Source: Candidatus Lightella neohaematopini
Lineage (GTDB): Bacteria; Pseudomonadota; Gammaproteobacteria; Enterobacterales; Enterobacteriaceae
NCBI GenBank assembly: GCA_025728545.1
Contig: JAOBJL010000001.1
Coordinates: 152,236-216,235, forward strand
DNA: 64,000 nucleotides
Reading direction: 5' to 3'
A program made the position numbers and the translations under genes. This document shows positions 4,168 through 59,704 of this stretch, piece after piece. The notes beneath the pieces were generated by a model. It worked only from the letters and a program-made list of their open reading frames with translations. It did no database searches and was not told the origin of the DNA. Numbering within the stretch: the stretch's first letter is position 1; each line of letters starts with the position of its first letter.

Positions 4168-4176
4168 AATAATATT

Positions 4177-5844: not shown

Positions 5845-5916
5845 ATATAAACTTAATTTTTTATTAACTGATATTTAAGTATCCTTCTTAAGATATAGTT
5901 GGTTAATATTATTATC

Positions 5917-5931: not shown

Positions 5932-6120
5932 AGATATTATTTTATGTATAAACTTACTTACACCAGAAATTATAATATTAATAATTAGATATTATAATAT
6001 TATGTAATAATATTGTATTATATTATACAATCAAAAAATTAATATCAAATTAATATTTTTTCAACAAATATATATAATTTAATAATTAATAAATAATTTT
6101 ATTAAAAGAATATTAAATTG

Positions 6121-7413: not shown

Positions 7414-7431
7414 ACTAATATATAGTTTTTA

Positions 7432-40824: not shown

Positions 40825-41136
40825 TTATCCTAAACTAATTTGAACATCTACCCCAGCAGCTAAATCTAATTTCATAAGGGCATCCACAGTTTTTTCAGTA
40901 GGTTCAACAATGTCTATTAATCTTTTATGAGTTCTAATTTCATACTGATCACGAGCATCTTTATCTACGTGAGGTGAAATTAATATTGTAAAACGTTCTC
41001 TATTTGTTGGTAATGGGATTGGACCTCTTACTTGTGCTCCAGTTCGTTTAGCTGTTTCAACTATTTCTGTAGTAGATTGATCGATTAATTTATGATCAAA
41101 TGCTTTAAGCTTAATTCTAATTCTTTGATTATTCAT
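40825..41136 (-). CDS. rpsJ: 30S ribosomal protein S10
   Basis: Head protein and NusE, the NusB partner in antitermination. 103 residues as in E. coli. [40 protein letters not shown], and [13 protein letters not shown] are conserved. AAGG precedes the ATG. It opens the 28-gene S10-spc-alpha series. In E. coli tufA lies upstream of it; here it faces bioH across 272 bp. Confidence 0.98.
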
Positions 41137-41165
41137 AATAAAAGCCTTAACATATTAATTAATAC

Positions 41166-41182
41166 TACTATTTACAATAGTA
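41166..41182. repeat. Small hairpin in the S10 operon leader
   Basis: TACTATT (41166-41172) and AATAGTA (41176-41182) pair perfectly over a 3-base loop, starting 30 bp before the rpsJ ATG. In E. coli the S10 leader carries L4-responsive hairpins. This one is much smaller and may be a remnant or chance. The rest of the 41137-41408 gap holds only AT-rich sequence with no coding potential. Confidence 0.3.
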
Positions 41183-41408
41183 TACAAATAAATAATATTT
41201 AATATAAAGTATTGAAAAAATTAGGAATAATAAAACCTACTTTAAATATTAATAAACATTAAATTCTATAATAATATTAATTATATAATTAATTGTAAAG
41301 AATTTTATTTATAATTAATTTTAATTTACTTAAATTAGTTAATTATATAATATTAAGCTATATAAGTTTATTAAAAATTTTAATCTAAAAATAAATCTAT
41401 TATTTGTT

Positions 41409-42182
41409 ATGCAACTATTAAATTGGAAGATTTATGGTAAAGGTAATATTAATATAATACTAATACATGGTTGGGGTATAAATTCGAAAATCTGGTTAAA
41501 TTTAACAAAAAAACTAAAAAAAGATTTTTGTGTACATTTATTTGATTTACCTGGATATGGTAATAGTAAAGAAATTCATTTAAGTACATTAGATCAATTA
41601 ATTAATGTAATTATGAATGATATTAATGTTACCAATGTAGTATTAGTTGGTTGGTCATTAGGTGGATTAATAGCTACTAAAATGGTATTATCATGTCCAA
41701 ATATTTTTAAAGGGTTAGTTTTAGTATCTTTTTCACCATATTTTTGTGTAGATTATAATTGGCCAGGTATTAATAATATGACACTAATTAATTTTATTAA
41801 TGGATTACATAACGATTACATTAAAACAATGTTAAAATTTATTTGTTTACAAAATATTAATATTAAACTAACAAAACAGGAAAGAATTAATTTAAAAAAT
41901 ATTATTCTAAATAAGAAGACAATACCTTCTATAAGAACATTAATATTTGGTTTAAAGTTATTAGAAAAAACTGATTTAAGAAAATTAATGAATAATATTA
42001 GTATACCACATATTACAATATATGGTAAACTGGATAGTATAGTACCATATAAAATAGCTTTTTTAAATAAAAATAAAAAAAATACTAATTTTATATTAGA
42101 AAATTCAGCGCATATGCCATTTATATCAGAAAATAATAATTTTTATAATATTTTATACAATTTTATTAATAAATTTAAATAA
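41409..42182 (+). CDS. bioH: Pimeloyl-ACP methyl ester carboxylesterase BioH
   Basis: Alpha/beta hydrolase that removes the methyl ester from pimeloyl-ACP, ending the BioC-BioH route and giving the substrate of BioF in biotin synthesis. 257 residues (256 in E. coli). The catalytic triad is visible: S83 in GWSLGG, D209 in YGKLDSIVP, H235 in NSAHMPFIS, at almost the same numbers as E. coli (82, 207, 235). The oxyanion HGWG motif (20-23) and WPGI are kept. No other bio gene is nearby. Retention suggests biotin supply to the host. Its strand is reversed relative to the S10 operon when compared with E. coli. Confidence 0.93.
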   Translation: MQLLNWKIYGKGNINIILIHGWGINSKIWLNLTKKLKKDFCVHLFDLPGYGNSKEIHLSTLDQLINVIMNDINVTNVVLVGWSLGGLIATKMVLSCPNIFKGLVLVSFSPYFCVDYNWPGINNMTLINFINGLHNDYIKTMLKFICLQNINIKLTKQERINLKNIILNKKTIPSIRTLIFGLKLLEKTDLRKLMNNISIPHITIYGKLDSIVPYKIAFLNKNKKNTNFILENSAHMPFISENNNFYNILYNFINKFK

Positions 42183-42192
42183 AATCAAAATA

Positions 42193-43800
42193 CTAAATTT
42201 TAGGCCCAGCTTTAACTATTAGATTAGCTAAATTAGTATTTAAAAATCTATTAAAATTATTTTTTAATAATTTTGCTAGTATTCTTGCTTTATATTTCCA
42301 TATTGCTTTATTTACATAATAATTACGTGGATCTAATAAATTAGAATCTAATCCATCTAAATATTTAGGTACTGATAAATTAAATATTGGTATAATATTT
42401 AATAGTTTTGTATTAATATTACAATTTAATATGTTATCTATTATAATTTTGGTTTTTGTAATAGATATACGACTACCATAATAATCCCAACCAGTATTAA
42501 CTAAAAAAATATTAATATTATTTTTTAATAAACAATTAGTCAATAATTTAGTATATATAATTGGATGTAGTGGTAAAAAAGGTTCAGCAAAACATGCTGA
42601 AAATGTTGGAATTGGTTTAAGTATATTTAATTCTGTATTTGATAATTTTGTAGTGAAGCCTGACAAAAAATAGTATTGAGATTGTTCTAATGATAGAATA
42701 GATATTAATGGTAGAACTCTAAAGTAATCTGCAGTCAAAAATATTATATTTTTAACATTATGTGTTATTAATTTAAATTTATTTCTTTTTCTAATATAAC
42801 TAATTGGAAAAGATACCCTGGTATTTTCTGTATACCTATCATTAAAAAAATCTACAAAACCATTATCTAAAACTACTACATTTTCTAATATAGCATTTTT
42901 TTTTATTGCAGAAAATATTTCTGGATTATCAATACTTGTTAAATTAATAACTTTGGCATAACATCCTGCTTCAAAATTAAATACTTGACCATTATTATTC
43001 CAACCATGTTCATCATCTCCTATTAAATAATGATTTTTTACATTAGACAATGTAGTTTTTCCAGTACCAGATAGACCAAAAAATAAAGTTACTTTATTAT
43101 TTTTATTTACAGTTGCAGCACAATGCATCGGTAAAATATTACGTGATGGTAAAAAATAATTCATGATTAGAAATATTCCTTTTTTTATTTCTCCATTATA
43201 CAAAGTACCACCTATAATTTGCATTTTTTCAGTAAAATTAAAAGCTATAAATATCTCTGAATTCAAATTATATTTATTCCACATATTATTTTTACATCTA
43301 GCACCATTTAATATAACAAAGTTTGGTTTAAATTTTTTTGAATCTTCTTTATTGGCTATAATAAACATATTTTTTATAAAATGTGCTTGCCAAGGTATCT
43401 CTGTGATAAATCTAATTTTTAATTTATTATGTATATTAGTGCCACAAAAAAAGTCTACAATAAATATTTTCTTATTATTAAGTTGATTAATAATTAAATC
43501 TTTTAAGAAACACCAAGTATTAATATTGATTGGCTTATTATTATTTTTATTTGTCCACCAAATTTTATCTTTAGTGTTATTATCATATACTATATACTTA
43601 TCTAATGGTGATCTACCTGTAAACGGTAATGTATTTATTGAAATAGCACCATAATTAGTAACTAATACTTTTTTTAAGTCAGATAAATTTAAATTTTTTT
43701 CTTCTTTAAATAATAAAGAAAAACTAGGATTATATAATATTTTTTTATATTTCTTTATACCATATTTTTCTATTTCTTTTTTTAAATTATTAATATCCAT
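42193..43800 (-). CDS. pckA: Phosphoenolpyruvate carboxykinase (ATP)
   Basis: Converts oxaloacetate and ATP to PEP and CO2, the gateway to gluconeogenesis. 535 residues (540 in E. coli). Active-site residues are in place: R63 in TGRSPLDKY, the lysine of IKKG (206-207), H226 in MHCAAT, P-loop GLSGTGKTT (242-250), IGDDEHGW (260-267, metal aspartate), and R328 in TENTRVSFP. Two conserved segments differ: TADAFGVLPP of E. coli reads TADYFRVLPL (356-365), and GWNGTGKRIS reads GWDYYGSRIS; both lie in the C-terminal nucleotide region. PEP is also a substrate for the shikimate route, so it may serve aroA and the missing aroG-type step. Divergent from aroK as in E. coli synteny. Confidence 0.96.
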   Translation of the reverse strand: MDINNLKKEIEKYGIKKYKKILYNPSFSLLFKEEKNLNLSDLKKVLVTNYGAISINTLPFTGRSPLDKYIVYDNNTKDKIWWTNKNNNKPININTWCFLKDLIINQLNNKKIFIVDFFCGTNIHNKLKIRFITEIPWQAHFIKNMFIIANKEDSKKFKPNFVILNGARCKNNMWNKYNLNSEIFIAFNFTEKMQIIGGTLYNGEIKKGIFLIMNYFLPSRNILPMHCAATVNKNNKVTLFFGLSGTGKTTLSNVKNHYLIGDDEHGWNNNGQVFNFEAGCYAKVINLTSIDNPEIFSAIKKNAILENVVVLDNGFVDFFNDRYTENTRVSFPISYIRKRNKFKLITHNVKNIIFLTADYFRVLPLISILSLEQSQYYFLSGFTTKLSNTELNILKPIPTFSACFAEPFLPLHPIIYTKLLTNCLLKNNINIFLVNTGWDYYGSRISITKTKIIIDNILNCNINTKLLNIIPIFNLSVPKYLDGLDSNLLDPRNYYVNKAIWKYKARILAKLLKNNFNRFLNTNLANLIVKAGPKI

Positions 43801-43971
43801 AACACTAAATTTAGTAATTTGTTAAAATTAGAAGTTAGTTAGTCAATATTTTTAAGTTAATTATTTAACTAAATATATTATGAGATAAATTTAATAACTT
43901 TTACAAATATTTATATACTTAAATATAATTAAATTTTTGTAAAGCATTTTTAATAATATATATTAATATTT

Positions 43972-44487
43972 ATGATAAGTAAAAAAAGAAATATATTTTT
44001 AATAGGACCAATGTTTTCTGGCAAAACAACTATTGGATTTTATTTAGCGAAAAAATTAAATATGTTATTTTTTGATTCTGATTACGAAATACAAAACCTT
44101 ACAAAAACTAGTATAGAAAAAATTTTTATTGAAGGAGAAGATAAATTTAGAAAAATTGAAGAGAATGTTATACTAAATATAATAAGGATGAATAATATAT
44201 TATTATCTACTGGTGGAGGATCTATACAATCAAGAACCTTGTTAAAATATTTACCACTGTACGGAAATATAATTTATTTAAAAACTAGCGTCAAATCACA
44301 ACTATTAAGAATAGATAATGCTGTTAATAGACCATTATTAAAGTTAGATAGTCCTAATATTATATTAGAATATTTATCAAATAAACGTAATCATTTATAT
44401 GAGTCAATTTCTGATTTTATAATTAGTACAGATAAAAAAAATATTTACGATATTATTAATAATATTATAAAATTAGTAAATTTATGA
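43972..44487 (+). CDS. aroK: Shikimate kinase
   Basis: Fifth shikimate step: phosphorylates shikimate with ATP. 171 residues (173 in E. coli AroK). The P-loop is GPMFSGKTT (12-20) where E. coli has GPMGAGKST; it still fits the Walker A pattern. FDSDYEI (shikimate-binding aspartate), EGEDKFRKIEE (arginine), STGGGS and NRPLL are conserved. Start and synteny with aroB match E. coli; the aroB ATG overlaps the stop by 4 bp. It could serve for both AroK and AroL. Confidence 0.96.
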   Translation: MISKKRNIFLIGPMFSGKTTIGFYLAKKLNMLFFDSDYEIQNLTKTSIEKIFIEGEDKFRKIEENVILNIIRMNNILLSTGGGSIQSRTLLKYLPLYGNIIYLKTSVKSQLLRIDNAVNRPLLKLDSPNIILEYLSNKRNHLYESISDFIISTDKKNIYDIINNIIKLVNL

Positions 44488-45575
44488 ATAAACTAGTAAA
44501 ATATAATTCATGTAAAGTATTAATATTAAATAATTTATTTAGTGATTCAATTTATTTTAATATTTTAAAAAATAAAAGATTACTAATTATAACAAATAAA
44601 TTAATTGCATCATTATACTTAGATAAATTAAAAAAGTTACTTTATAATGCTACTAATAATCTGGAACATATTATTATACCAAATGGTGAAAAATATAAAA
44701 ATATAACAACAGTAAATAATATTATTTCAATATTACTAAAAAAGAATTATGACAGTGATACTATCATTATTTCTTTTGGTGGTGGTGTAATAAGTGATAT
44801 ATCCGGTTTTATTGCTTCTATTTATAAAAGAGGTATTGATGTTATTCATATTCCTACTACTTTACTTGCTCAAGTAGATGCATCTATAGGAAACAAAACT
44901 TCTATAAATCATAAATGTGGTAAAAATATGATTGGTACGTTTTATGAACCAAAATTAGTAATAATTGGATTAAATTTTTTAAACACACTATCAAGAAAAG
45001 AAATTTATTCTGGATTATCAGAGGTTATTAAATATGGTATAGTAATGAATAGTAATTTTTTCTTTTGGGTAAAAAAAAATATAAATAATTTAATTCTATT
45101 AAAGTCAAAATCTTTATATTATTGTGTTACTACTTGTTGTAAGTTAAAAATAGATATAATAAATAAGAATAAAATTGATAATATATCAAGAATGTTATTA
45201 AATTTTGGACATACTTTTGGACATGCAATCGAACAATATGCTAGTTATAATAATTGGTCTCATGGATCAGCAGTTGCTGTTGGTATTATTATAGCTACTT
45301 ATGTTTCTTTAAATCTCAATATAATTAGAATTAAACAAGCTAAATTAATTAGGTCAGTTATAATAAAAGCTAAGTTACCAATATTTGGTCCAAAAAACAT
45401 AAGTATTAATGATTACATTAATATAATAAAAAATGATAAAAAAAGTAATATAAATAGTATTAACTTAGTATTACCAATTAGTATTGGTAAAGCAAGATTA
45501 TTCTATAATATAGATAATAAAGTAATAACTAAATCTATTTTAGACAGTAAGCAAGATCTACTTTCAAGATTATAA
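44484..45575 (+). CDS. aroB: 3-dehydroquinate synthase
   Basis: Second shikimate step: NAD- and metal-dependent ring closure of DAHP. 363 residues (362 in E. coli). NAD site FGGGVISDISGF (98-109), HIPTTLLAQVDASIGNKTSI (122-141), and the metal ligands E180 (GLSEVIKYG), H243 (FGHTFGHA) and H260 (WSHGSAV) are all present and correspond to E184, H247 and H264 of E. coli. Overlap of 4 bp with aroK indicates coupling. damX and dam, which follow in E. coli, are missing; rpe is 4 bp downstream. Confidence 0.97.
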   Translation: MNKLVKYNSCKVLILNNLFSDSIYFNILKNKRLLIITNKLIASLYLDKLKKLLYNATNNLEHIIIPNGEKYKNITTVNNIISILLKKNYDSDTIIISFGGGVISDISGFIASIYKRGIDVIHIPTTLLAQVDASIGNKTSINHKCGKNMIGTFYEPKLVIIGLNFLNTLSRKEIYSGLSEVIKYGIVMNSNFFFWVKKNINNLILLKSKSLYYCVTTCCKLKIDIINKNKIDNISRMLLNFGHTFGHAIEQYASYNNWSHGSAVAVGIIIATYVSLNLNIIRIKQAKLIRSVIIKAKLPIFGPKNISINDYINIIKNDKKSNINSINLVLPISIGKARLFYNIDNKVITKSILDSKQDLLSRL

Positions 45576-45579
45576 TAAA

Positions 45580-46254
45580 ATGAAAAATAAATTAATTTCT
45601 GCATCTATTATTTCTGCTAACTTTGCTTTATTAGGTCAAGATATAGAAAATGTAGTACGTGCTGGAATAGATTTAATACACTTTGATGTTATGGATAATC
45701 ATTATGTACCTAATTTAACTATTGGTCCATTAGTATTAAGGTCATTAAGAAATTATGGTATTAATATTCCAGTAGATGTTCATTTAATGGCTAATCCAGT
45801 AGAATCATTAATATTAGAGTTTGCTAAAGCTGGAGCTAATTATATATCTTTTCATGTAGAAACAACTAATCATATAGATAGGTTATTACAGACTATTAAA
45901 AATTATGGATGTAAAGCTGGATTAGCATTTAATCCATCTACACCATTATCCTATTTAGAATATGTTATAGATAAAATAGATTTAGTACTAATTATGTCGG
46001 TTAATCCAGGATATAGTAGTCAATTATTTATACCATCTATATTAAATAAAATAAAACAATTAAATAATATCATAATGAATAGTAATTTAAATATTGATAT
46101 TGCTGTTGATGGAGGTATTAAATTAGAAAATATAGAAATTATTTCTAAAATGGGAGCAAATATTTTTATTATTGGATCAGAAATTTTTAATAGTGATAAT
46201 TACTTCATAACTATAAAAAATATTAAATCAAAAATAATAGGCAATAATATATAA
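45580..46254 (+). CDS. rpe: Ribulose-phosphate 3-epimerase
   Basis: Interconverts ribulose-5-phosphate and xylulose-5-phosphate in the pentose phosphate pathway. 224 residues (225 in E. coli). TIM-barrel motifs: SASIISANFALLG, HFDVMDNHYVPN (metal ligands H34, D36), DVHLM (H68), SVNPGYSSQLF and the phosphate-site VDGGIK. In E. coli rpe lies between dam and gph; both are gone here. Same operon as aroKB by spacing. Confidence 0.97.
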   Translation: MKNKLISASIISANFALLGQDIENVVRAGIDLIHFDVMDNHYVPNLTIGPLVLRSLRNYGINIPVDVHLMANPVESLILEFAKAGANYISFHVETTNHIDRLLQTIKNYGCKAGLAFNPSTPLSYLEYVIDKIDLVLIMSVNPGYSSQLFIPSILNKIKQLNNIIMNSNLNIDIAVDGGIKLENIEIISKMGANIFIIGSEIFNSDNYFITIKNIKSKIIGNNI

Positions 46255-46317
46255 TAAGATTATAATAATACTATTACTGTAACTAATAAAAATTTACAAT
46301 ATTAGATTATAAAATTT

Positions 46318-47319
46318 ATGTTAACTGAAAATATAGTTTTTAGTGCTGTACAACCATCAAATAATTTAACAATTGGTAATTATATTGGTGCAATTAAAAT
46401 ATGGGTAGATATTCAAAATATTTATAAATGCATATATAGTATAGCTGACTTACACGCTATCACTAATAATTATTACAATAATTTAAAAACATTATCTTTA
46501 AATACATTAGCATTATACTTAGCCTGTGATATTAATCCTGAAACAAATATTATTTGTTTACAATCTGAAATAGTAGAACATAGTCAATTACATTGGATAC
46601 TTAGTTGCTTCGTTAATTGGAATAAACTAAAACACATGACACAATTTAAAAATAAATATTCAAAACAAGGTAGTTTATTAAATAAAGTCACTGTCGGATT
46701 ATTTACTTATCCAATATTAATGGCATCAGATATATTATTATATCAAACTAATTATGTACCAGTAGGTTATGATCAAAAACAACATTTAGAATTTAGCAGA
46801 AAAATAGCAAGAAATTTTAATAAAAAATATGGTAATATTTTTACCATACCTCAACCTATCATTCCAAAAATAGGGAAAATAACATCTTTACTTAACCCTA
46901 TAAGAAAAATGTCTAAATCTGATATTAATAGTAATAATTATATTTCTTTACTTGACAAACCAGAATTAGTTATAAAAAAAATTAACAACGCTATTACTGA
47001 CTCTAATAATCCACCAATTGTAAAATATGATATAAAAAATAAACCGGGAATCTCTAATCTACTAAATATATTATCCGTACTTACTAATATAAGTATAGTA
47101 AATTTAGAAAAAGATCTTAACAATATTAATTATATTCAATTTAAAAAAATAGTATCTAATGAAATCAATAATACTTTATTTAAAATACAAAAAAAATATT
47201 TTTCTATTAGAAACAAAGAAAAATATTTAAATAGTATATTAATTAATGGTAATAAAAGAGCTAAAATTATAGCTAGAAACACCTTAAATAAGGTATATAG
47301 AGTAATTGGTATAAAATAA
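46318..47319 (+). CDS. trpS: Tryptophanyl-tRNA synthetase
   Basis: Class Ic synthetase charging tRNA-Trp. 333 residues (334 in E. coli). The HIGH-equivalent is TIGNYIGA (18-25), KMSKS is at 197-201, and the Trp-pocket segments DLHAIT, LLYQTNYVPVGYDQKQHLE are present. No frameshift or truncation. Follows rpe by 63 bp, with gph of the E. coli order deleted. Confidence 0.97.
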   Translation: MLTENIVFSAVQPSNNLTIGNYIGAIKIWVDIQNIYKCIYSIADLHAITNNYYNNLKTLSLNTLALYLACDINPETNIICLQSEIVEHSQLHWILSCFVNWNKLKHMTQFKNKYSKQGSLLNKVTVGLFTYPILMASDILLYQTNYVPVGYDQKQHLEFSRKIARNFNKKYGNIFTIPQPIIPKIGKITSLLNPIRKMSKSDINSNNYISLLDKPELVIKKINNAITDSNNPPIVKYDIKNKPGISNLLNILSVLTNISIVNLEKDLNNINYIQFKKIVSNEINNTLFKIQKKYFSIRNKEKYLNSILINGNKRAKIIARNTLNKVYRVIGIK

Positions 47320-47332
47320 CATAATATATAGC

Positions 47333-47917
47333 ATGAAAATATTATTAATAGATAATTACGATTCATTTAATTGGAATACATATCATTATATTAAAATGAT
47401 GAATATTAATAGTGTATTAATTTATAAACATGATGTATTAAATATTTCTGATATTAATAGTATTAATCCAACTAAAATAATAATTCTTCCAGGACCAGGA
47501 TCACCTAATTCATTAAATATATCTTCAAAAATAATAGAATATTTTTCTGATACTATACCTATACTAGGTATATGTTTAGGTCATCAAATAATAGGTAAGG
47601 TATTTGGAGCAAAGATTATAAGATCAAATTTTATTATGCATGGCAAACAATCTATTATTATTCATAATAATAATAATATATTTTATAATATAAATAATCC
47701 ATTTAAAGCAGTAAGGTATAATTCATTAACTATTTCTACAGAAAATTTACCTAGTTGTCTATTAGTCAATGCTTGGAGTATATATAATAACAATAAAGAA
47801 ATTATGGCTATTAAACACCGTAATTTACCATTATATGGAATACAATTTCATCCAGAAAGTATTTTAAGTGAATTTGGAATTAAAATATTATATAATTTCA
47901 TTTATTGTAAATATTAA
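47333..47917 (+). CDS. pabA: Aminodeoxychorismate synthase glutamine amidotransferase subunit
   Basis: Class I glutaminase that feeds ammonia to PabB for 4-amino-4-deoxychorismate, the first step to p-aminobenzoate and folate. 194 residues (187 in E. coli). The triad is intact: C81 in LGICLGHQ, H173 and E175 in FHPESI. LLIDNYDSFNWN and PGPGSPN mark the N-terminal half. TrpG of anthranilate synthase is very similar and some symbionts use one subunit for both; the position next to trpS on the way to the str operon follows E. coli pabA, so that name is preferred. pabB is not in the window. Confidence 0.87.
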   Translation: MKILLIDNYDSFNWNTYHYIKMMNINSVLIYKHDVLNISDINSINPTKIIILPGPGSPNSLNISSKIIEYFSDTIPILGICLGHQIIGKVFGAKIIRSNFIMHGKQSIIIHNNNNIFYNINNPFKAVRYNSLTISTENLPSCLLVNAWSIYNNNKEIMAIKHRNLPLYGIQFHPESILSEFGIKILYNFIYCKY

Positions 47918-47987
47918 AATTAAATAATAAAATAAAACTATGTATAAAATTATTTAATTTTATAATAAATAAATGTTATTTGTTAAC

Positions 47988-48016
47988 TGGTAGTATAAAC
48001 ATAAATATGTTATAAT
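47988..48016 (+). promoter_or_regulatory. Probable promoter of the str operon
   Basis: TGTTATAAT at 48008-48016 is a perfect extended -10 element (TGnTATAAT). The hexamer 17 bp upstream (47988-47993, TGGTAG) is a poor -35, which extended -10 promoters can tolerate. It lies 93 bp before rpsL in the 191-bp gap after pabA. The match is unusually complete even for AT-rich DNA. Confidence 0.5.
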
Positions 48017-48108
48017 TAAAAATTAATTAATAAATATGATGATTTTTTGATTAATACAGTTAGAACGAGATTTATATTAATTATTAAGTTTAAAGGTTAA
48101 TTATATTT

Positions 48109-48477
48109 ATGGTTACTATAAACCAACTAGTACGTAAAGCAAGATCTATAAAAAGTATAAAGAATAACGTTCCTGCTTTAAATCAATGTCCTCAAAAAAG
48201 AGGAATATGTACTCGTGTCTATACTACTACTCCAAAAAAACCTAATTCTGCTTTAAGAAAGGTATGTAGGGTAAAATTAACTAACGGGTTTGAGGTTACT
48301 GCATATATAGGTGGAGAAGGTCATAATTTACAAGAGCATTCAGTTGTTCTAATTAGAGGTGGTAGAGTAAAAGATTTACCAGGGGTAAGATATCATTCCA
48401 TAAGAGGAGCATTAGATTTTTCTGGAGTTAAGGATCGTAAAAAAGGTAGATCAAAATATGGTACCAAAAAAAACTAA
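48109..48477 (+). CDS. rpsL: 30S ribosomal protein S12
   Basis: Decoding-centre protein. 122 residues (124 in E. coli). [20 protein letters not shown] and [19 protein letters not shown] are conserved; the lysine of KKPNS is the streptomycin-sensitive wild type. [20 protein letters not shown] and [15 protein letters not shown] follow. AAAGG lies 12 bases before the ATG. First gene of the str operon. Confidence 0.98.
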
Positions 48478-48543
48478 TTTATTCTATTTAATACATAAAT
48501 AGTTTAAAATAAATTATTTTGTTTTACAATAATAGGTAATTAA

Positions 48544-49014
48544 ATGTCTAGAAAGCGTTCAAAAAATAAACATATAATTCTACCAGATTGTAAGTTTAAC
48601 TCTTTAGTATTAGCAAAATTTATTAATATTATTATGAAGAATGGTAAAAAATCCATTGCTGAAAATATATTATATAATGCTTTAGATATATTATTAAAAA
48701 AGATTAATAAAAAACCAATAGAAATATTAGAGTTAGCACTGTCTAATGTAAGACCAGTTGTTGAAATAAAATCTAGGAGAGTTGGTGGGTCTACTTATCA
48801 AATTCCGGTAGAAATTAACGCAAACAGAAGAAATACATTAGCAATGCGTTGGATAATTATTGCTGCTCGTAAACGTAAAGATAAATCCATGGTTATTCGT
48901 TTAGCTAATGAATTATTTGATGCTATTAATAATAAAGGATTAGCAATAAAAAAACGAGAGGATACACATCGTATGGCAGAAGCAAATAAAGCTTTTGCTC
49001 ATTATAGATGGTAA
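48544..49014 (+). CDS. rpsG: 30S ribosomal protein S7
   Basis: Primary binding protein of the 30S head and, in E. coli, translational repressor of the str operon. 156 residues, the usual short form. [51 protein letters not shown] and [20 protein letters not shown] are conserved. fusA follows by 33 bp. Confidence 0.98.
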
Positions 49015-49047
49015 TTGTTTTACTATTTTTTTAAAAGAGGAATTAAT

Positions 49048-51150
49048 ATGAGTCGTGTTACACCTATTACTAGGTATCGTAATATTGGTATAAGTGCACA
49101 TATTGATGCAGGAAAAACTACTACTACTGAAAGAATTTTATTTTATACTGGTGTAAATCATAAAATTGGAGAAGTTCATCATGGTGATGCTACTATGGAT
49201 TGGATGATTCAAGAACAAGAACGTGGTATAACAATTACTTCAGCAGCAACTACTTGTTTTTGGTCTGGTACATATAATCAATTTAATATACATAGAATTA
49301 ATATTATTGATACTCCTGGACATGTTGATTTTACAGTAGAAGTAGAACGATCAATGAGGATATTAGATGGTGCTGTGATGATTTATTGTGCTGTTGGTGG
49401 AGTACAACCCCAATCAGAAACAGTATGGAGACAAGTTAACAAGTATAAGGTACCAAGAATTGCTTTTATAAATAAAATGGATCGTATCGGAGCTGATTAT
49501 CTAAAAGTTATAGAACAACTAAAAAATAAATTACATGCTAATCCTGTACCAATCCAATTAGCCATTGGAAAGGAAGAAAATTTTATTGGAATAATAGATT
49601 TAGTAAAAATGAAAGCAATTATTTGGAATAATAAAGATTATGGAATTAAGTATAATATTACAGATATACCTAAAGAATTATTTGAATTATCATATTCATT
49701 ACGTTTAAAATTATTGGAATCTGCAGCAGAAAGTTCAGAAAAATTAATGGATAAGTATTTATTACATGGCTCTCTTAATGAAAATGAAATTAAACAAGCA
49801 TTACGTTATAGATCATTAAATAATGAAATTACTATAGTTACTTGTGGTTCTGCTTTTAAAAATAAAGGTATTCAAACTATGCTAGATGCAATAATTGATT
49901 ATTTACCATCTCCAAATGATATTAATAATATTAATGGAGTTCTTACAGATAGAAAAACTAATATCTTTCGTTCTCCAAAAGATAATGAACCATTTTCTGC
50001 ACTAGCTTTTAAAATAGCTAATGATCAATTTGTAGGTAATTTGACATTTTTTAGGGTTTATTCTGGAATTATAAAATCTGGTCAAACATTACTTAACTCA
50101 ACAAAAAATAAACAAGAAAGGCTTGGTCGTATTGTACAAATGCATGCTAATAAAAGAGATGAAATAAAAGAAGTCAGAGCAGGTGATATTGCTGCAGCAA
50201 TAGGATTAAAAAATATTTCTACTGGAGATACATTATGTGATCCAAATTATCCAATTATTTTAGAAAATATAGAATTTCCTGAACCAGTTATATCTTTATC
50301 ATTAGAACCAAAAACTAAAATTGATCAAGAAAAAATGAGTTCTGCTTTAGTTCGTCTTACACAAGAAGATCCATCATTTAAATTTTGGATTAATCATGAA
50401 TCAGGGCAAACTATTATTTCAGGCATGGGTGAATTACATTTAGAAATTTTAGTTGATCGTATGTATCGTGAATTTGATGTGCACGCTAATATTGGTGTAC
50501 CTCAAGTTTCATATAGAGAAACTATAAAAAAAATGGTTGAACAGGAAGGTAAATTTATTCGTCAATCTGGTGGTAGAGGTCAATTTGGTCATGTTTGGTT
50601 ACGTATTGAGCCAATCAAGTCTAAGGAAAAAAATTATGAATTTATAAGTGAAATAGTTGGTGGAGTTATTCCAAAAGAATATATTCCAGCTATAGATAAA
50701 GGTGTTCGTGAACAAATGAGTAGTGGTATTCTTGCTAATTACCCAATTGTTAATATTAAAGTAACTGTTTTTGACGGATCATATCATGAAGTTGATTCAT
50801 CAGAAATAGCTTTTAAAATAGCCAGCGCTATAGCTTTTAAAGAAGCTTTTATGAAAGCACAACCAGTATTACTTGAACCAATTATGAATATAGAAATTAT
50901 TACACCAGAAAATTATATGGGTGATCTTATTGGTGATTTGAATAGACGTAGAGGAATTATTAATAATATAAATGACTTAAATAATGATAAAGTTATACAT
51001 GGTGAAGTACCACTTGCTGAAATGTTTGGTTATGCTACATCCTTACGTTCACAAACTCAAGGTAGAGCATCATATTCTATGGAATTTCTTAAATATCAGG
51101 AAACACCAAATAAGATTACTAAAATTATAATAGAAAATCGTAATAAATAA
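49048..51150 (+). CDS. fusA: Translation elongation factor G
   Basis: GTPase that drives translocation and, with RRF, ribosome recycling. The ATG at 49048 gives [20 protein letters not shown] and 700 residues (704 in E. coli); AAAAGAGG at 49033-49040 is its ribosome site. An in-frame TTG at 49015 is rejected. G-domain motifs: [43 protein letters not shown]. Domains II-V continue to the end, including HEPSYHDVDSS-type segment [12 protein letters not shown] and RRRGI. Only a few residues are lost. Confidence 0.98.
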
Positions 51151-51211
51151 AGTATGTGTTTATTTTATTTAATTAGATTATATTTAATAACTTCAATTTA
51201 AGGAATTAGTC

Positions 51212-52396
51212 GTGTCTAAAGAAAAATTTTATCGTAACAAACCACATATTAATGTTGGTACAATAGGTCATGTAGATCATGGTAAAACTACTTTAACATC
51301 TGCTATAACTACCGTTTTATCTAAAATATATGGTGGTACAGCTCGTGCTTTTGAACAAATTGATAATGCTCCAGAAGAAAAAGCAAGAGGTATTACTATT
51401 AATACTTCACATGTGGAGTATGATACAAAGACTAGACATTATGCTCATGTTGATTGTCCTGGTCATGCTGATTATGTGAAAAATATGATTACTGGAGCAG
51501 CACAAATGGATGGAGCTATTTTAGTAGTTGCTGCTACAGATGGACCTATGCCCCAAACAAGAGAACATATTTTATTAAGTAGACAAGTTGGGGTACCTTA
51601 TATAGTTGTATTTATGAATAAATGTGATATGGTAGAAGATAATGAGTTGTTAGAATTAGTAGAAATGGAAGTTAGAGAACTATTATCACAATATGATTTT
51701 CCTGGTGACAGTACTCCAATCATTAGGGGTTCTGCTTTAAAAGCATTAGAAGGTGATGATAAGTGGATAAATAAAATTATAGAGTTAGCTAATACTTTAG
51801 ATAATTATATTCCTCAACCTAAACGATCTATAGATCAACCATTTCTATTACCTATAGAAGATGTATTTTCTATTTCTGGTAGAGGAACAGTAGTAACTGG
51901 GCGCGTAGAGCAAGGAGTAATTAAGATCGGTGAAGAAGTAGAAATAGTTGGTATTAAACAAACTAATAGTACAGTTTGTACCGGAGTAGAAATGTTTCGT
52001 AAATTGTTGGATGAAGGTCGTGCTGGAGAAAATATAGGAGTATTATTAAGAGGAACTAAACGTGAAGAAGTAGAACGTGGACAAGTACTAGCAAAACCTG
52101 GATCTATTAAGCCATATACTAAGTTTGAAGCAGAAGTTTATATATTGAATAAAAATGAAGGTGGAAGACATACTCCATTTTTTCATGGTTACAAACCTCA
52201 ATTCTATTTTAGAACTACTGATGTTACTGGAAGTATTGAATTATCCAATGATATTGAAATGGTTATGCCTGGTGATAATATTAAAATGATTGTAAATCTA
52301 ATTTGTCCTATAGCTATGACTAATGGTTTAAGATTTGCAATCCGAGAAGGAGGACGCACAGTTGGTGCTGGAATAGTTACAAATATTATTTCTTAA
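51212..52396 (+). CDS. tuf: Translation elongation factor Tu (single fused-position copy)
   Basis: GTPase that carries aminoacyl-tRNA to the A site. 394 residues with a GTG start, exactly as in E. coli tufA; AAGGA lies 7 bases upstream. Motifs: [51 protein letters not shown], and the domain III end [12 protein letters not shown]. This copy has the tufA neighbour (fusA) upstream and the tufB neighbour (secE) downstream, so it looks like the recombined or sole survivor of two ancestral tuf genes. The tRNA genes that precede tufB in E. coli are not here. Confidence 0.98.
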
Positions 52397-52437
52397 AATA
52401 ATTATCTATGTTAATGAAAATACTAGATTTTTAAATT

Positions 52438-52463
52438 AGTACCTAGTTAATTAGCTAGGTACT
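52438..52463 (+). terminator. Strong hairpin between tuf and secE
   Basis: AGTACCTAG (52438-52446) and CTAGGTACT (52455-52463) form a perfect 9-bp stem over an 8-base loop that can pair two bases further. It begins 42 bp after the tuf stop and ends 40 bp before secE. Four G-C pairs make it one of the strongest stems in the window. The sequence after it (TATGTTATGA) is not a proper T-run, so it may be a factor-assisted terminator, a processing or a stability element rather than a classic intrinsic terminator. Confidence 0.5.
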
Positions 52464-52503
52464 TATGTTATGATACGATTTTATTAAAAATATTTAAATA
52501 TTT

Positions 52504-52857
52504 ATGAAAATTAATATAGTTGATATTTTAAAAAAATATATAAAAAAATTAGTTACTATCATATTAATAATATTAATTTTAATTATATTATCTAATTATT
52601 ATAGTAAATTATGTATGATATTCATTACAATTATAATTAGCATTACGTTATTATATTATTTCAAAAAAAATAATGTAATGAAAATAATAATTCAATCTTA
52701 TAAGGAATTAAAACAAGTTAGTTGGCCTAATTATAAAGATGTAGTTGGTATAACAGTGATTGTTATTGCAGTAACTATTATTATGTCATTAATAATATGG
52801 GGATTAGATACATTACTAATTAATAGTATTTCATTTATTACTAAATTAAAAATATAA
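52504..52857 (+). CDS. secE: Preprotein translocase subunit SecE
   Basis: Essential clamp around SecY in the translocon. 117 residues (127 in E. coli) and, like the E. coli form, it has three hydrophobic segments (about 17-30, 35-52 and 82-105). The conserved amphipathic cytoplasmic region [17 protein letters not shown] identifies it. Small symbionts often retain only the last membrane segment, so the three-segment form is comparatively complete. nusG follows by 7 bp. Confidence 0.95.
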
Positions 52858-52864
52858 TACGGAT

Positions 52865-53404
52865 ATGTCTATTAAAAAAAATTGGTACGTTATTCAAGTA
52901 TTTTCTGGTTTTGAAAAAAAGGTATCTTTTTCTATTAAAGAATATACTAAGTTACATAAAATGGAACATTTGTTTGGAAATATTATAGTTCCTACAGAAG
53001 AAGTAGTAGAAATAAAACGTGGCCAAAGACGTAAAAGTGAAAGAAAATTTTTTCCAGGGTATGTATTAATAGAAATGATATTAAATAATGATAGTTGGTA
53101 TTTAGTTCGTAGTATACCAAAAGTTATGGGATTTGTTGGCGGTCATTCTGATCATCCTACACCAATAAGTGATAAAGAAATTAATATTATTATTAGTAGA
53201 CTACAAAAGGCTGGTGATAAACCGAAGCCAAAAGTAATATTTGAGTTGGGTGAGTTGGTAAGAGTTAATCATGGACCATTTTCTGATTTTAATGGAACAG
53301 TAGAAGAGGTAGATTATGAAAAAAGTAGATTGAAAGTATCTGTCTCAATTTTTGGAAGATCAACTCCAGTAGAATTAGATTTTGCACAAGTAGAAAAAAA
53401 TTGA
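52865..53404 (+). CDS. nusG: Transcription termination/antitermination protein NusG
   Basis: Binds RNA polymerase and couples it to Rho or to the ribosome via S10. 179 residues (181 in E. coli). NGN domain: [35 protein letters not shown], and [17 protein letters not shown]. The KOW domain [20 protein letters not shown] and [18 protein letters not shown] closes it. Part of secE-nusG. Confidence 0.97.
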
Positions 53405-53405
53405 T

Positions 53406-53430
53406 ATATAATAACTATATGTTATTATAT
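53406..53430 (+). terminator. AT-rich hairpin directly after nusG
   Basis: ATATAATAAC (53406-53415) and GTTATTATAT (53421-53430) form a perfect 10-bp stem over a 5-base loop, two bases after the nusG stop. It could attenuate transcription between secE-nusG and rplK. With only one G-C pair and no clean T-run its role is uncertain. Confidence 0.35.
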
Positions 53431-53470
53431 CAGTAATTATTTTGTAGTTATATTATTTATACTTATAGTT

Positions 53471-53908
53471 ATGGTAAAAAAAATAAAATCTATAGTTAAA
53501 TTACAAATACCATCTGGATCAGCAAATCCATCACCTCCGATTGGACCTGCTTTAGGACAACACGGAGTTAATATTGTAGAATTTTGTAAAAAGTTTAATC
53601 ATGTTACTTCTGGGATAAAAAATAATACTCCTTTACCTACTATAATAACAATATATATTGATAACTCTTTTACTTTTATATATAAAAGTCCACCAGTTAC
53701 TTTTTTATTAAAACAAATGACTAATATAAAGATAGGTTCTAATAAACCTGGTAAAAAAATAATTAGTAAAATTAATTATAATATAGTTGAAGAAATCGCT
53801 AAATTAAAAATAAAAGATATGAATACTATTAAATTAGATTCAATAATCAAATCTATTATAGGTTCAGCTAAGTCTATGGGAATTATTGTTGATGAGCAAA
53901 ATAAATAA
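53471..53908 (+). CDS. rplK: 50S ribosomal protein L11
   Basis: GTPase-centre protein. 145 residues (142 in E. coli). VKLQIPSGSANPSPPIGPAL, GQHGVNIVEFCKKFN, KSPPVTFLLKQ and SAKSMGIIVDE are conserved. The usual end is at this last segment; three extra residues (QNK) extend into rplA, which starts 17 bases before the rplK stop. Confidence 0.97.
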   Translation: MVKKIKSIVKLQIPSGSANPSPPIGPALGQHGVNIVEFCKKFNHVTSGIKNNTPLPTIITIYIDNSFTFIYKSPPVTFLLKQMTNIKIGSNKPGKKIISKINYNIVEEIAKLKIKDMNTIKLDSIIKSIIGSAKSMGIIVDEQNK

Positions 53909-54599
53909 AAGAATAAATAGTTTATATAAAAGAATAGACATTAATAAATGTTACGAAATTAATCAAGCAATTGATATTTTAAAAAAAAGTAGTAATGTTA
54001 AATTTATTGAAAGTATTGATGTTGCTATAAAGCTTAATATTGATACAAAAAAAATAGATCAGAATATTAAAAATACAATTATTTTACCTTACAATAATGG
54101 TCAAACAACAAAAATAGCAGTCTTTACTCAAGACAAGAAACAAATTGAAATTATTAAAAAAACCGGTGTTAGTATGGTTGGTATGGAAGAATTATTTTCT
54201 TACATAAAAAATAATAAAAAAGAAAAAATAGATTTTGTTATAGCATCACCAGATGCTATGCCATTAGTTAGTAAACTAGGTAGTATTTTAGGTCCAAGAA
54301 ATATTATGCCTAATCCTAAATTAGGTACTGTTACTAATGATATTATTTCGGTAATCAATGAAATAAAATTAGGAAAAATTATTTATTATAATGATAAATA
54401 TGGCATTATACATACTTCTATAGGTAGAATAAATTTTGATATAAATAAAATAATAGAAAATTTAAAAATATTAATACTATCAATAATCAAAAATAAATCT
54501 ATGTTAAACAAAAATAATTTGATAAACCAAGTGCATTTATCTACAACAATGGGTATTGGTATTAGTATTAATTTTTTAAATATATTAAAAAATAGTTAG
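53892..54599 (+). CDS. rplA: 50S ribosomal protein L1
   Basis: L1-stalk protein and, in E. coli, repressor of its own operon. The ATG at 53892 gives MSKINKRINSLYKRID and 235 residues (234 in E. coli); a TTG at 53886 is rejected. VIASPDAMPLVSKLGSILGP, RNIMPNPKLGTVT and the STTMGIGISI end are conserved. 17-bp overlap with rplK suggests coupled translation. Confidence 0.96.
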   Translation: MSKINKRINSLYKRIDINKCYEINQAIDILKKSSNVKFIESIDVAIKLNIDTKKIDQNIKNTIILPYNNGQTTKIAVFTQDKKQIEIIKKTGVSMVGMEELFSYIKNNKKEKIDFVIASPDAMPLVSKLGSILGPRNIMPNPKLGTVTNDIISVINEIKLGKIIYYNDKYGIIHTSIGRINFDINKIIENLKILILSIIKNKSMLNKNNLINQVHLSTTMGIGISINFLNILKNS

Positions 54600-54666
54600 T
54601 GTTTTGATTTTTTTAACAAAAATATAATTACTTTAATTAGGTAATTTTTTATAAAAAGAGTTTATT

Positions 54667-55152
54667 ATGGTTTTAAATATTAATGAAAAATTTAATATTG
54701 TAAATAGTATTAATAAATTACTTAATAATGTATTATCTATTGTTATTGCTGATTATCATGGTGTTAGTGCAAATGAAATTAATTCTTTAAGAAAAGATGC
54801 ATATAAACAAAGTATTAATATTTTTATAGCAAAAAATACTTTAATTAATAATGCTATTAAAAAAAATAGTAATTTGAAGTGTTTATCAAATTTATTCAAC
54901 GGGCCAACATTAATTGCTTGTTCATCTAAACATCCTGGTATTGCTGCACGTCTGTTATATAGTTTTTCTAAAAAAACTAAATTAAAAATAAAATTAGCAT
55001 GCTACAATGGTAATATTATATATAAACCAGAAATACAATATTTAGTTAATATGCCAACATATGAAGAGGCTATTATTAATATTATTAAATTATTAAAAGA
55101 AGTTTCTTTACTAAAATTACTTAAAGTATTAAATTTTATAAAAAATAATTAG
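54667..55152 (+). CDS. rplJ: 50S ribosomal protein L10
   Basis: Base of the L7/L12 stalk. 161 residues (165 in E. coli). IVIADYHGVSANEINSLRKD, IAKNTLINNAI, GPTLIACSSKHPGIAARLL fit the family; the C-terminal helix that binds L7/L12 dimers is Lys/Leu-rich and drifted. 67 bp after rplA, in which no L10-type leader structure was clear. Confidence 0.96.
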   Translation: MVLNINEKFNIVNSINKLLNNVLSIVIADYHGVSANEINSLRKDAYKQSINIFIAKNTLINNAIKKNSNLKCLSNLFNGPTLIACSSKHPGIAARLLYSFSKKTKLKIKLACYNGNIIYKPEIQYLVNMPTYEEAIINIIKLLKEVSLLKLLKVLNFIKNN

Positions 55153-55219
55153 CTATATTATAGTTAATTATCATTAATGTAGCTAAAATAGTTATTTATA
55201 CTATAAATTAAGGATTATT

Positions 55220-55582
55220 ATGTCTATCTCTAAAGAAAATATTATAGATGCAATTAGTAACATGTCAATAGCTGATATAAGTGAACTAATATCAATGTTA
55301 GAAAAAAAATTTAATGTTGTAGCTAATACAACAAATAATGTAACAAATAATACTGAGGTATTAGAAGAACAAACTGAATTTAGTATATTTTTAGATAAAA
55401 TTGGTACAAATAAAATTTCTGTTATTAAAATAATCCGTAGTGTTACTGGATTAGGTTTAAAAGAAGCAAAAGATTTAGTTGAATCAGCTCCAGTATTAAT
55501 AAAAGAATCATTAAATAAAGTTGATGCAAATAGCATAAAGCAAGATTTAGAGAAAGTTGGTGCTTCTGTCACAATAAAATAA
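55220..55582 (+). CDS. rplL: 50S ribosomal protein L7/L12
   Basis: Acidic stalk protein that recruits translation GTPases. 120 residues (121 in E. coli). The N-terminal dimerisation helix (IIDAISNMSIADISELISML), a short hinge (about 37-52) rich in Asn/Thr rather than the Ala/Gly-rich E. coli hinge, and the C-terminal domain with KISVIKIIRSVTGLGLKEAK and DLVESAP are present. AAGGA before the ATG. Confidence 0.97.
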   Translation: MSISKENIIDAISNMSIADISELISMLEKKFNVVANTTNNVTNNTEVLEEQTEFSIFLDKIGTNKISVIKIIRSVTGLGLKEAKDLVESAPVLIKESLNKVDANSIKQDLEKVGASVTIK

Positions 55583-55653
55583 AAAATTACTAAAAAAGAT
55601 AGGATATATATAATGGTTTTATTATTTACTTTTATGTAATATAGGTTAATAAC

Positions 55654-58600
55654 ATGTTATATTCTCATACTGAAAAGATAAGAATTCGTAAAGACTTTGG
55701 TAAAAGACAGCAAATATTAGATATACCATATCTTTTATCTATTCAATTAGAATCTTTTAAAAAGTTTATTAGGTATGATCCTAATGGTAAAATTGGATTA
55801 GAGTCAGTTTTTCGTTCTATTTTTCCTATCAAGAGTTACAATAAAAATGCAATACTGAAATATCGTAGTTATTATATTGAAAAACCAATTTTTGATATTA
55901 ATGAATGTAAAACTAGAGGTATGACTTATTCAGCATCATTAAAAGTAAAATTATGTTTACTAGTATATGATAATGATACATTAAGTAATAAAATTAAGTA
56001 TGAGAAGGAACAAGAAGTTTATATGGGAGAAATTCCATTAATGACAAATAACGGTACATTTATTATTAATGGTATTGAACGTGTTGTAGTATCACAACTA
56101 CATCGTAGTCCAGGGGTATTTTTTGATAGTGATAAAGGAAAAACTCATTCTTCTGGTAAAATATTATATAATGCTCGTATTATTCCTTACAGAGGATCTT
56201 GGTTAGACTTTGAATTTGATTCTAAAGATAATTTATTTGTACGTATTGATAGAAGAAGAAAGTTACCAGTTACAGTATTATTACATGCCTTAGGTTATAA
56301 TAATAGTCAAATATTAGATATATTTTTTGATAAAGTAATTTATAATATCAATGATAATCAAGCTAAAATGATATTAGTACCAGAAAGATTAAGAGGAGAA
56401 ACTGCATTATTTGATATAAAAAATAATGACGTTATATATGTTAAACAAGGAAGAAGAATTACTTATAACCATATTAAATTATTAATAAACGATTGTGTAA
56501 ATGAAATAGAAATACCAATTGATTATGTCATTGGTAAAATATTAGCTAAAGATTACTTTGATGATAATAATAAATTAATAGCACAAGCAAATACTAAAAT
56601 AACATTAGATATATTAAAAATACTTAACAAATCTAAATATTTTCAAATAGAAACAATTTTTACTAATGATTTAGATCATGGTTCATTTATATCAGAAACT
56701 ATGAAAATTGATCAAACTTATGATCGTATAACAGCTCTAACAGAAATATATCGTATTATTAGACCTGGAGAGCCACCTACAAAAGATACAATTGAAAATA
56801 TGTTTAACAATATGTTTTTTTCTCATGATCGTTATGATTTATCATTAGTTGGAAGAATGAAGTTTAATAAATCTCTTTCATGTAATGAAGATTACAATAA
56901 TGGATTACTTACAAAAAAAGATATTATATTAGTGATAAAAAAATTAATAGATATTAAAAATGGAAAAGGAGAGATAGATGATATTGATCATTTAGGTAAT
57001 CGTCGTATTCGTTCTGTAGGTGAAATGGCAGAAAATCAATTTCGTATTGGTTTACTTAGAGTAGAAAAAACTGTAAGAGAAAGGTTATCTCTTGGAGATT
57101 TAGATAATCTAATACCTCAAGAACTTATAAATGCTAAGCCAATTTCTGCTGCAATAAAAGAATTTTTTGGATCTAGTCAATTATCACAATTTATGGATCA
57201 AAATAATCCACTATCAGAAATAACTCATAAAAGACGTATTTCTGCTTTAGGTCCAGGAGGTTTAACAAGAGAACGTGCAGGGTTTGAAGTAAGAGATGTT
57301 CATCCTACTCATTATGGTCGTGTATGTCCTATAGAAACTCCTGAAGGACCAAATATAGGATTAATTAATTCATTATCTGTATATGCTCGTATTAATAGTT
57401 ATGGATTTCTTGAAACTCCATATCGAGTTGTGAAAAATGGTATCGTATCTAGTAATATTCATTATTTATCTGCAATAGAGGAAGCTAATTATATAATAGC
57501 ACAAGCTAATACTAATATAGATAATAATGGACATTTTATTGATGAATTTATTACCTGTCGCAATAAGGGTGAATCTAGTTTATTTAATAAAAATCAAGTT
57601 CATTATATGGATGTCTCAACTCAACAAATAGTTTCAGTTGGTGCATCATTAATACCATTTTTAGAACATGATGACGCAAATAGAGCTTTAATGGGGGCAA
57701 ATATGCAACGTCAAGCAATACCTACATTAAAAACAGAAGCTCCGTTAGTTGGTACTGGTATGGAAAGAATTGTTGCGATAGATTCTGGAGTAACTATTAT
57801 AGCTAATAGAAGTGGTACAGTACAATATGTAGACGCAACGAAAATTATTATTAAAGTTAACTTAAATGAAATTAACTATGATGATGTTGGTATTGATATA
57901 TATACTTTAACAAAGTACACTCGTTCTAATCAAAATACTTGTATTAATCAAGTTCCTTGTGTAAATATCGGTGATTTAATTAGTAAAGGTGATGTATTAG
58001 CAGATGGACCAGCTACAGATTTAGGTGAATTGGCTTTGGGGCAAAACATGCGTATTGCTTTTATGCCGTGGAATGGATATAATTTTGAAGATTCAATGTT
58101 AATTTCTGAGAAAGTAGTACAGCAAGATAGATTTACTACTATTCATATTCAAGAATTATCTTGTATAGCTAGAGATACTAAATTAGGAGCAGAAGATATT
58201 ACGTCAGATATTCCTAATGTAAGTGAATCTGCATTATCTAAATTAGACGAATCTGGTATAGTTTATGTTGGGGCTGAAGTAATTGGTGGAGATATTTTAG
58301 TAGGTAAAGTTACACCAAAGGGTGAAACGCAATTAACACCTGAAGAAAAATTACTTAGAGCTATTTTTGGAGAAAAAGCATCAGATGTAAAAGATTCATC
58401 TCTAAGAGTACCAAACGGAGTATTTGGTACTGTGATTGATGTACAAATATTTACTAGAGATGGTATCAAGAAGGATAAACGTACTTTAGAAATTGAAAAT
58501 AGTAAAATAGAGAATATAAGAAAAACTCTTACCGAAGAATTAAAAGTATTAGAATGTAATTTATTTAATTTTGTATATAATTTATTGGTAAATAATAATA

Positions 58601-59679
58601 TTAAACCAGAATTACTTAACACAATATCTAAATATGAATGGTTTAATATTGATATTAAGAATACTATTGATAGACAAAAATTATCAACACTTTACAAACA
58701 ATTTAATAATATAAAACATAATTTTGATAAACAATTAAAATTAAAAATAAAAAAAATAACTCAAGGCGATGATTTAGCTCCGGGAATATTAAAAATAGTT
58801 AAGGTATATTTAGCAGTAAAAAGATATATCCAACCTGGAGATAAAATGGCTGGTCGTCATGGAAATAAAGGAGTAATTTCTAAAATTTGTCCTATTGAGG
58901 ATATGCCTTATGATGAAAATGGAGTACCAGTTGATGTTGTATTAAATCCGTTAGGTGTTCCATCACGTATGAATATTGGTCAAATTTTAGAAACTCATTT
59001 AGGTATGGCAGCAAAATGTATTGGTAATAGAATTCATGATATGTTGAAGCAAAATGCTAATATTTTAGAAATAAAAAATTTTATACAACAAGTTTATGAT
59101 GTTGGTAATAATATAAGACAAAAAGTAGATTTAGATAATTTATCAAACGATGATATAGTTAAGTTAGCAAAAAATTTAAAAAATGGAATACCAATTGCTA
59201 CTCCGGTTTTTGATGGAGCCAAGGAAGAAGAGATAAAACAATTATTAAAATTAGCTAATATATCTACATCAGGACAAATTACTTTATTTGATGGTAGAAC
59301 TGGTGAAAAATTTGAACGACCAGTCACTGTTGGATATATGTATATGTTAAAATTAAACCATTTAGTAGATGATAAAATGCATGCTCGTTCAACCGGATCA
59401 TATAGCTTAGTAACACAACAACCATTAGGTGGTAAAGCTCAGTTTGGTGGTCAAAGATTTGGTGAAATGGAAGTCTGGGCATTAGAGGCATACGGAGCTG
59501 CATATACATTACAAGAAATGTTAACTGTTAAATCAGATGATGTTAATGGAAGAACAAAAATGTATAAAAATATAGTAGATAATAATCATACTATGGAACC
59601 TAATATACCAGAATCATTTAATGTATTACTTAAAGAAATACGTTCTTTAGCTATTAATATAGAATTAGAAGAAAATTAA
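55654..59679 (+). CDS. rpoB: RNA polymerase beta subunit
   Basis: Forms half of the RNA polymerase active-site cleft. 1341 residues (1342 in E. coli), so no domain was lost. The rifampicin region [20 protein letters not shown] then [14 protein letters not shown] is wild type. [20 protein letters not shown], the [15 protein letters not shown] active-site segment, and [20 protein letters not shown] near the C terminus are intact. The insert at about 940-1040 is diverged. 24 bp before rpoC. Confidence 0.98.
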
Positions 59680-59704
59680 TTAAATAATATAAGGGATATA
59701 TTTA

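Follow-up and report, generated by a model that had tools for sequence, protein, structure and literature searches.

Recombination between tuf genes as the probable explanation for the fusA-tuf-secE junction of Candidatus Lightella neohaematopini

In the draft genome of Candidatus Lightella neohaematopini (G000; 462,716 bp in six contigs, 93.9% complete), the str operon rpsL-rpsG-fusA runs through a single tuf gene straight into secE-nusG. How did operons that lie next to two separate tuf genes in Escherichia coli K-12 come to share one? The window, the whole stretch of 64,000 nucleotides analysed here, comprises bases 152236-216235 of contig C2 (216,235 bp), which stops right behind rpoC (rpoC end at 63889 of 64000). 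We conclude, with a probability of roughly 0.8, that two tuf genes recombined, more likely by inversion of the segment between them, and that a second rearrangement and the loss of one tuf led to the order of the window genus.

Gene order around a single tuf gene

The open reading frames (ORFs) agreed with the order and strands that the first-pass annotation had claimed from rpsJ to nusG, and this order is real in the window genome (Table 1). Ten window proteins were scanned with NCBIfam: bioH, pckA, aroB, rpe, trpS, EF-Tu, secE and nusG passed the cut-off of the model of the same name, pabA passed only that of the trpG/pabA subfamily, and aroK scored best with the AroK model, yet below its cut-off. 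The rpsJ, rpsL, rpsG and fusA genes were identified through E. coli protein matches in the congeners G001 and G006.

The E. coli order that the annotation had given was likewise borne out by the K-12 record. Its tufA side reads rpsJ(-), gsp genes, bfr, bfd, chiA, tufA(-), fusA, rpsG, rpsL and pabA(-), followed, with gaps, by trpS, rpe, aroB, aroK, pck(+), bioH(-), nfuA(+) and asd(-); ~600 kb beyond asd come murB(+), birA(+), coaA(-), the tRNA array Thr-Tyr-Gly-Thr(+) (tRNA4), tufB(+), secE and nusG. The two tufs are in inverted orientation, ~705 kb apart. Reciprocal exchange between them would give two junctions, fusA-tuf-secE and rpsJ-(bfr/bfd)-tuf-tRNA4-coaA-birA-murB. The former is present in the window genome, with intergenic gaps of 61 bp (fusA-tuf) and 107 bp (tuf-secE). 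The reversal of order and strand expected between the tufs is seen for the stretch from bioH to the str operon, the remaining genes being displaced. Collinearity within the block reflects ordinary descent; the junctions rpsJ/bioH and tuf/secE call for an explanation.

The window genus is represented by seven assemblies, each a draft with between 5 and 100 contigs. The join fusA-tuf-secE was seen in six of them (the G004 contig starts inside tuf), and rpsJ-bioH-...-fusA-tuf also in six (the G005 contig measures 7.3 kb). Both stretches occur together in 5/7, the misses being contigs that end too early.

One tuf was found in the draft window genome. In the gap between rpsJ and bioH (41137-41408), where the annotation had proposed to look for residual tuf similarity, tblastn gave none and blastn against tuf and the tRNA-array stretch returned only AT-rich words of <=18 nt; a tuf remnant there was rejected on this basis. 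ARAGORN found no tRNA within the window. The tufB-leader tRNAs, Thr-Gly-Thr in this genome, sit on the 10,251-bp contig C6 beside asd, in the order murB(+), birA(+), asd(+), tRNAs(-) and broken coaA(+), followed by corA-, uvrD/rep-, dapF-, rho- and trxA-like genes (named by eye). A second species (G006) has the same murB-to-coaA order. The spacing between asd and the tRNAs in G000 is only 22 bp, leaving no room for a tuf, and in both species the displaced array has no adjoining tuf.

The final adjacencies of the genus are rpsJ-bioH, fusA-tuf-secE and tRNA array-asd. The annotation had attributed the whole order to one event, which does not hold: a lone inversion predicts rpsJ-tuf-tRNA array-coaA, and finding rpsJ at bioH and the array at asd calls for at least one more break; in addition to the tuf exchange, another pair of breaks would have removed and re-placed the intervening block. 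Nor is the supposed loss of most of the inverted segment supported. Contig C6 carries murB, birA, asd, the tRNAs and the rho- and trxA-like genes, and dnaN-, gyrB-, rnpA-, yidC- and mnmE-like genes (named by eye) lie at 12-20 kb of the window; the intervening segment is at least partly relocated and still partly present.

Both reciprocal junctions in related genomes

Relatives retain both products of the exchange. G528 (938,041 bp, one contig) carries fusA-tuf-secE together with rpsJ-tuf-tRNA4-coaA-birA-murB, its two tufs being identical over 1182 bp, and G693 has both junctions with tufs that are 99.8% identical. For three large, single-contig genomes (G645, G648 and G579) the rpsJ-bfr-bfd-tuf-tRNA4-coaA-birA-murB side was read directly, and the other is deduced from fusA and nusG, which share a strand and lie 1.94-2.06 kb from each other. 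The two tufs are still inverted in G645 (where ~550 kb separate them, counted through the ends of the 4,023,756-bp record) and G648; in G528, G579 and G693 the pair now has the same orientation, indicating that further rearrangement came after. Where two copies exist, their identity is 96.7-100% (7 genomes). The annotation's proposal that tufA x tufB recombination lies behind fusA-tuf-secE is thus well supported, as the reciprocal junction that it predicts is present in relatives.

Critically, either tuf has been lost from the inverted arrangement. A scar of rpsJ-tRNA4 without a tuf beside the S10 operon was found in G554, G747, G512, G058 and G080, with a bfr match between rpsJ and tRNA4 in G512 and G747. 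G472 and G012 show fusA-secE without a tuf match between, and their sole tuf sits behind the tRNA array. One tuf was therefore deleted at the rpsJ side in five genomes and the opposite copy in two, and these are mirror-image losses. G056 combines fusA-tuf-secE with another tuf that follows the tRNA array yet is not adjacent to rpsJ.

The frequency of the join was assessed in 75 genomes, most of them reduced, at least one tuf locus being read in 46. The inverted join was present in 19/46 genomes from 13 genera, 17 with fusA-tuf-secE and two (G472 and G012) with fusA-secE; G058 and G080 were counted on the basis of fusA-tuf-rplK, neither secE nor nusG being matched there. Among the other 29/75, 27 have tuf <4 kb from rpsJ by coordinates, G116 had no tuf match and G579 was moved to the large set. 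As a tuf beside rpsJ is compatible with inversion, 19 is a lower bound. The rpsJ side was fetched in 20 genomes, 16 of them inverted, of which six retain the tRNA array there. Of 80 large genomes, eight (from 4 of 53 genera) have nusG behind fusA on one strand and no more than 6 kb away, indicating that the inverted state is not confined to symbionts. One of the eight, G550, may represent a collapsed repeat: its assembly, a draft of 7 contigs, contains a single tuf, and its congener G237 is not inverted.

Further observations concern the displaced array and neighbouring genes. In G000 and G006, asd is divided over two reading frames at the same site (L162 (G000:C6) 2150-3239; L309 (G006:C6) 6964-8038), which may mean either that both species share a disrupted gene or that translation reads through a frameshift. 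The coaA gene lies in two pieces in G000 (L162 (G000:C6) 3585-4407), its match in G006 is likewise split (L309 (G006:C6) 5809-6559), and it therefore looks broken in these genomes. The array lacks tRNA-Tyr in both genomes (L162, G000:C6 3262-3517; L309 6695-6942); this absence concerns the array only, three of the 34 tRNA hits in G000 (on C5) being untyped. A Met-Gln-Leu tRNA cluster at G000:C2:69 kb, which first resembled the tufB leader, was rejected by its tRNA identities. In the inverted genome G471, the array adjoins crp rather than rpsJ (G471:C1:349041-349462; L296 7042-7463), a secondary rearrangement of another kind. G513 has a full tuf beside rpsJ and a tuf remnant with a stop (G513:C1:329912-330217) directly upstream of nusG (328788-329312), probably tufB in the course of decay. 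In genus g201 (~0.3 Mb genomes), tuf contains one in-frame TGA and nusG two, as if TGA were possibly read as an amino acid. In four assemblies of the genus (the window contig, which breaks at position 64000 of the window, G001:C7, G002:C5 and G006:C2), a contig of 216-217 kb ends 10 to 13 kb away from tuf; they seem to break at one common place, where a repeat, for instance an rRNA operon, may lie. Besides aroK and aroB, the window carries aroA and aroE, named by eye.

Table 1. Features of the window and of the g201 tuf and nusG genes
Feature	Position	Strand	Basis and remarks
rpsJ	40825-41136	-	ORF and, for congeners, E. coli matches; heads the S10 operon, with one edge of the rpsJ/bioH breakpoint on the 5' side
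Gap at rpsJ/bioH breakpoint	41137-41408		272 bp; no tuf or tRNA remnant detected
bioH	41409-42182	+	ORF and NCBIfam; distal end of the inverted str-side block
pckA	42193-43800	-	ORF and NCBIfam; strand opposite to E. coli, as predicted
aroK-aroB-rpe-trpS-pabA block	43972-47917	+	E. coli order, block-wise reversed
aroK	43972-44487	+	ORF and NCBIfam (below cut-off)
aroB	44484-45575	+	ORF and NCBIfam
rpe	45580-46254	+	ORF and NCBIfam
trpS	46318-47319	+	ORF and NCBIfam
pabA	47333-47917	+	ORF and NCBIfam subfamily
rpsL-rpsG-fusA (str operon)	48109-51150	+	ORF and E. coli matches in congeners
rpsL	48109-48477	+	ORF
rpsG	48544-49014	+	ORF
fusA	ends 51150	+	ORF
tuf	51212-52396	+	NCBIfam EF-Tu; sole tuf found, putative recombination site linking str with secE
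secE	52504-52857	+	ORF and NCBIfam
nusG	52865-53404	+	ORF and NCBIfam
secE-nusG-rplKAJL-rpoB-rpoC	52504-63889	+	NCBIfam for secE and nusG; genes 3' of tufB in E. coli
g201 tuf with in-frame TGA	G485:C1:201241-202419; G711:C1:73918-75096
g201 nusG with in-frame TGAs	G485:C1:29805-30326; G711:C1:163913-164434

Independent origins and alternative routes

A tree was built from NusG, L11, L1, L10, L7/L12 and RpoB (73 taxa, 2171 positions, LG+C20+F+G4, fast search). It followed an earlier tree of 72 taxa (LG+C10), for which 78 genomes had been supplied and six dropped for short sequence (G001, G002, G003, G006, G448 and G564); for the 73-taxon tree G461 and G711, whose branches are very long, were left out as well, and G693, G652 and G550 were added. 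The inverted genomes formed 12 maximal clades requiring 12 parsimony changes, or 10 clades when the drafts G550 and G463, with one assembled tuf each, were set aside. One of these clades unites g140, G056, G013 and g148, whose large genome G693 keeps both tufs; the 72-taxon tree, with low support, separates g140 from the G056/G013/g148 clade. For the approximately unbiased (AU) tests, the trees came from a fast search under LG+F+G4 and were tested under LG+C10+F+G4. A single origin, with 13 inverted taxa (the window genus, G471, G512, G528, G425, G472, G012, g6 and g53) as one clade, was rejected (p-AU 3e-7), as was a clade of the window genus and G471 (p-AU 0.006). The number of origins is approximate, given the poor support of many inner nodes and the long, AT-rich branches of the symbionts, and long-branch attraction limits what the trees show. 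Moreover, a two-tuf genome could flip back, so that some of the cases might stem from common flips that were later reversed.

Taken together, the data suggest that ancestral tufA, at the end of the str operon, and tufB, before secE, near-identical and inverted, would have recombined, joining fusA-tuf to secE-nusG-rpoBC and leaving no scar. In the window genus this would probably have taken the form of an inversion of the segment between the tufs. A second, non-tuf rearrangement would have put rpsJ next to bioH and the tRNA array next to asd, and the one tuf then missing would be a lost copy. We infer both the passage of this lineage through an inverted state with two tufs and the sequence of its rearrangements; inversion first is preferred because such a state is seen elsewhere, not from a trace in the window genome.

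Several findings weigh against this explanation. The window genus shows neither a tuf or tRNA scar at rpsJ nor the reciprocal join rpsJ-tuf-tRNA4-coaA, and its tRNA array adjoins asd, an outcome that a lone inversion does not give. A tuf that is part tufA and part tufB would be a further mark of the exchange, but the window genome offers one copy only. The array is also missing at rpsJ in 10/16 of the inverted genomes fetched, which implies that later rearrangement is usual. Finally, the nearest relative of the window genus in the tree, g200 (approximate likelihood ratio test 93), has no flip junction and provides no intermediate: G484 and G652 keep coaA-tRNA4-tuf-secE. In G584 (also g200), rpsL-rpsG-fusA is located elsewhere with no tuf behind fusA, and in G484, which has one tuf, the contig stops ~460 bp past fusA; beyond rpsJ, envZ and ompR are the first genes matched in that genome. 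The first-pass annotation had named, as evidence against its own reading, close relatives in which the same junction was reached through a different intermediate order; g200 keeps tRNA4-tuf-secE with str elsewhere and shows no intermediate for this lineage.

The three final adjacencies would also arise, in an equal number of steps, if the block from tufA to bioH had inverted first, with breaks at rpsJ/tufA and bioH/asd. The tufs would then be direct repeats, and recombination between them would have excised the remainder as a circle, which then integrated at another place; tuf exchange would still create the junction, though not through inversion. We consider this route possible but distinctly the less likely, since its initial break needs an event with no known homology and sets rpsJ beside bioH from the outset. 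No examined relative has rpsJ/bioH with two tufs, whereas the inverted two-tuf state exists in G528 and G693.

It is improbable that tuf exchange played no part, non-homologous moves having set the str block beside secE and one tuf having been deleted. Such moves would fit the other non-tuf breaks of this lineage (rpsJ/bioH, and asd beside the array), but the join falls at tuf, in the correct orientation, in many genomes, and relatives hold the reciprocal join with a second tuf. Smaller still is the chance of an assembly artefact, in which two tufs collapsed into one and the contig crossed over. The draft state of all seven genus genomes would allow it, and G550 and G463 could be such cases; against it, several separate assemblies of the genus follow the identical path and the displaced array lacks a tuf in both G000 and G006. 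Retention of an ancestral secE-rpoBC-str-S10 cluster has next to no probability. PMC8046335 describes the same operons as contiguous in the gammaproteobacterial ancestor, but there str lies behind rpoBC and before S10, whereas in the window str comes ahead of secE, with S10 on the far side of bioH; as neither rpoC-then-str nor str-then-S10 is found, the gene order refutes this explanation. Recombination between the tufs, together with a second rearrangement and the loss of one copy, is the reading we retain.

Relation to known rearrangements

Inversions between rRNA operons are a familiar case of homologous recombination between dispersed near-identical sequences. Here, in contrast, the repeat is a protein gene, and the junction gaps (61, 107 and 272 bp) are too small for an rRNA operon. 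The inversion reaction between tufs is itself already known. Two papers, both citing Hughes 2000, report on tuf recombination in Salmonella: up to a quarter of events gave a chromosomal inversion (PMC8262849), and almost half of the events selected at one site were inversions (PMC5485169). According to PMC8262849, oriC is flanked there by tufA and tufB at distances of ~480 and 280 kb. As far as these accounts go, the likeness is close, with the same inverted genes flanking oriC and the segment between them flipping; however, the Salmonella inversion is a laboratory event that keeps both tufs, whereas here lineages have fixed it, frequently losing one tuf, and the window genus is further rearranged. 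The operon-cluster rearrangements of Brandis 2021 (PMC8046335) shuffle the same secE-rpoBC-str-S10 operons, but the main text, in the sections consulted, treats those operons and not tuf inversion. What is notable is the recurrent fixation: repeated fixation of the tuf inversion with mirror-image freezing was not found in the open-licence literature searched.

The finding links a reaction known from laboratory measurements of recombination with chromosome structures that several bacterial lineages have fixed, and fusA-tuf-secE and rpsJ-tRNA4 provide gene-order markers that can be scored in other genomes. Gene loss in symbionts suggests a route by which a reversible flip would become permanent. 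We give even odds to the broader proposal that the tuf pair acts as a recurrent inversion switch of enterobacterial chromosomes, fixed some ten or more times, in which reduction would freeze either mirror state and two-tuf symbionts may be polymorphic.

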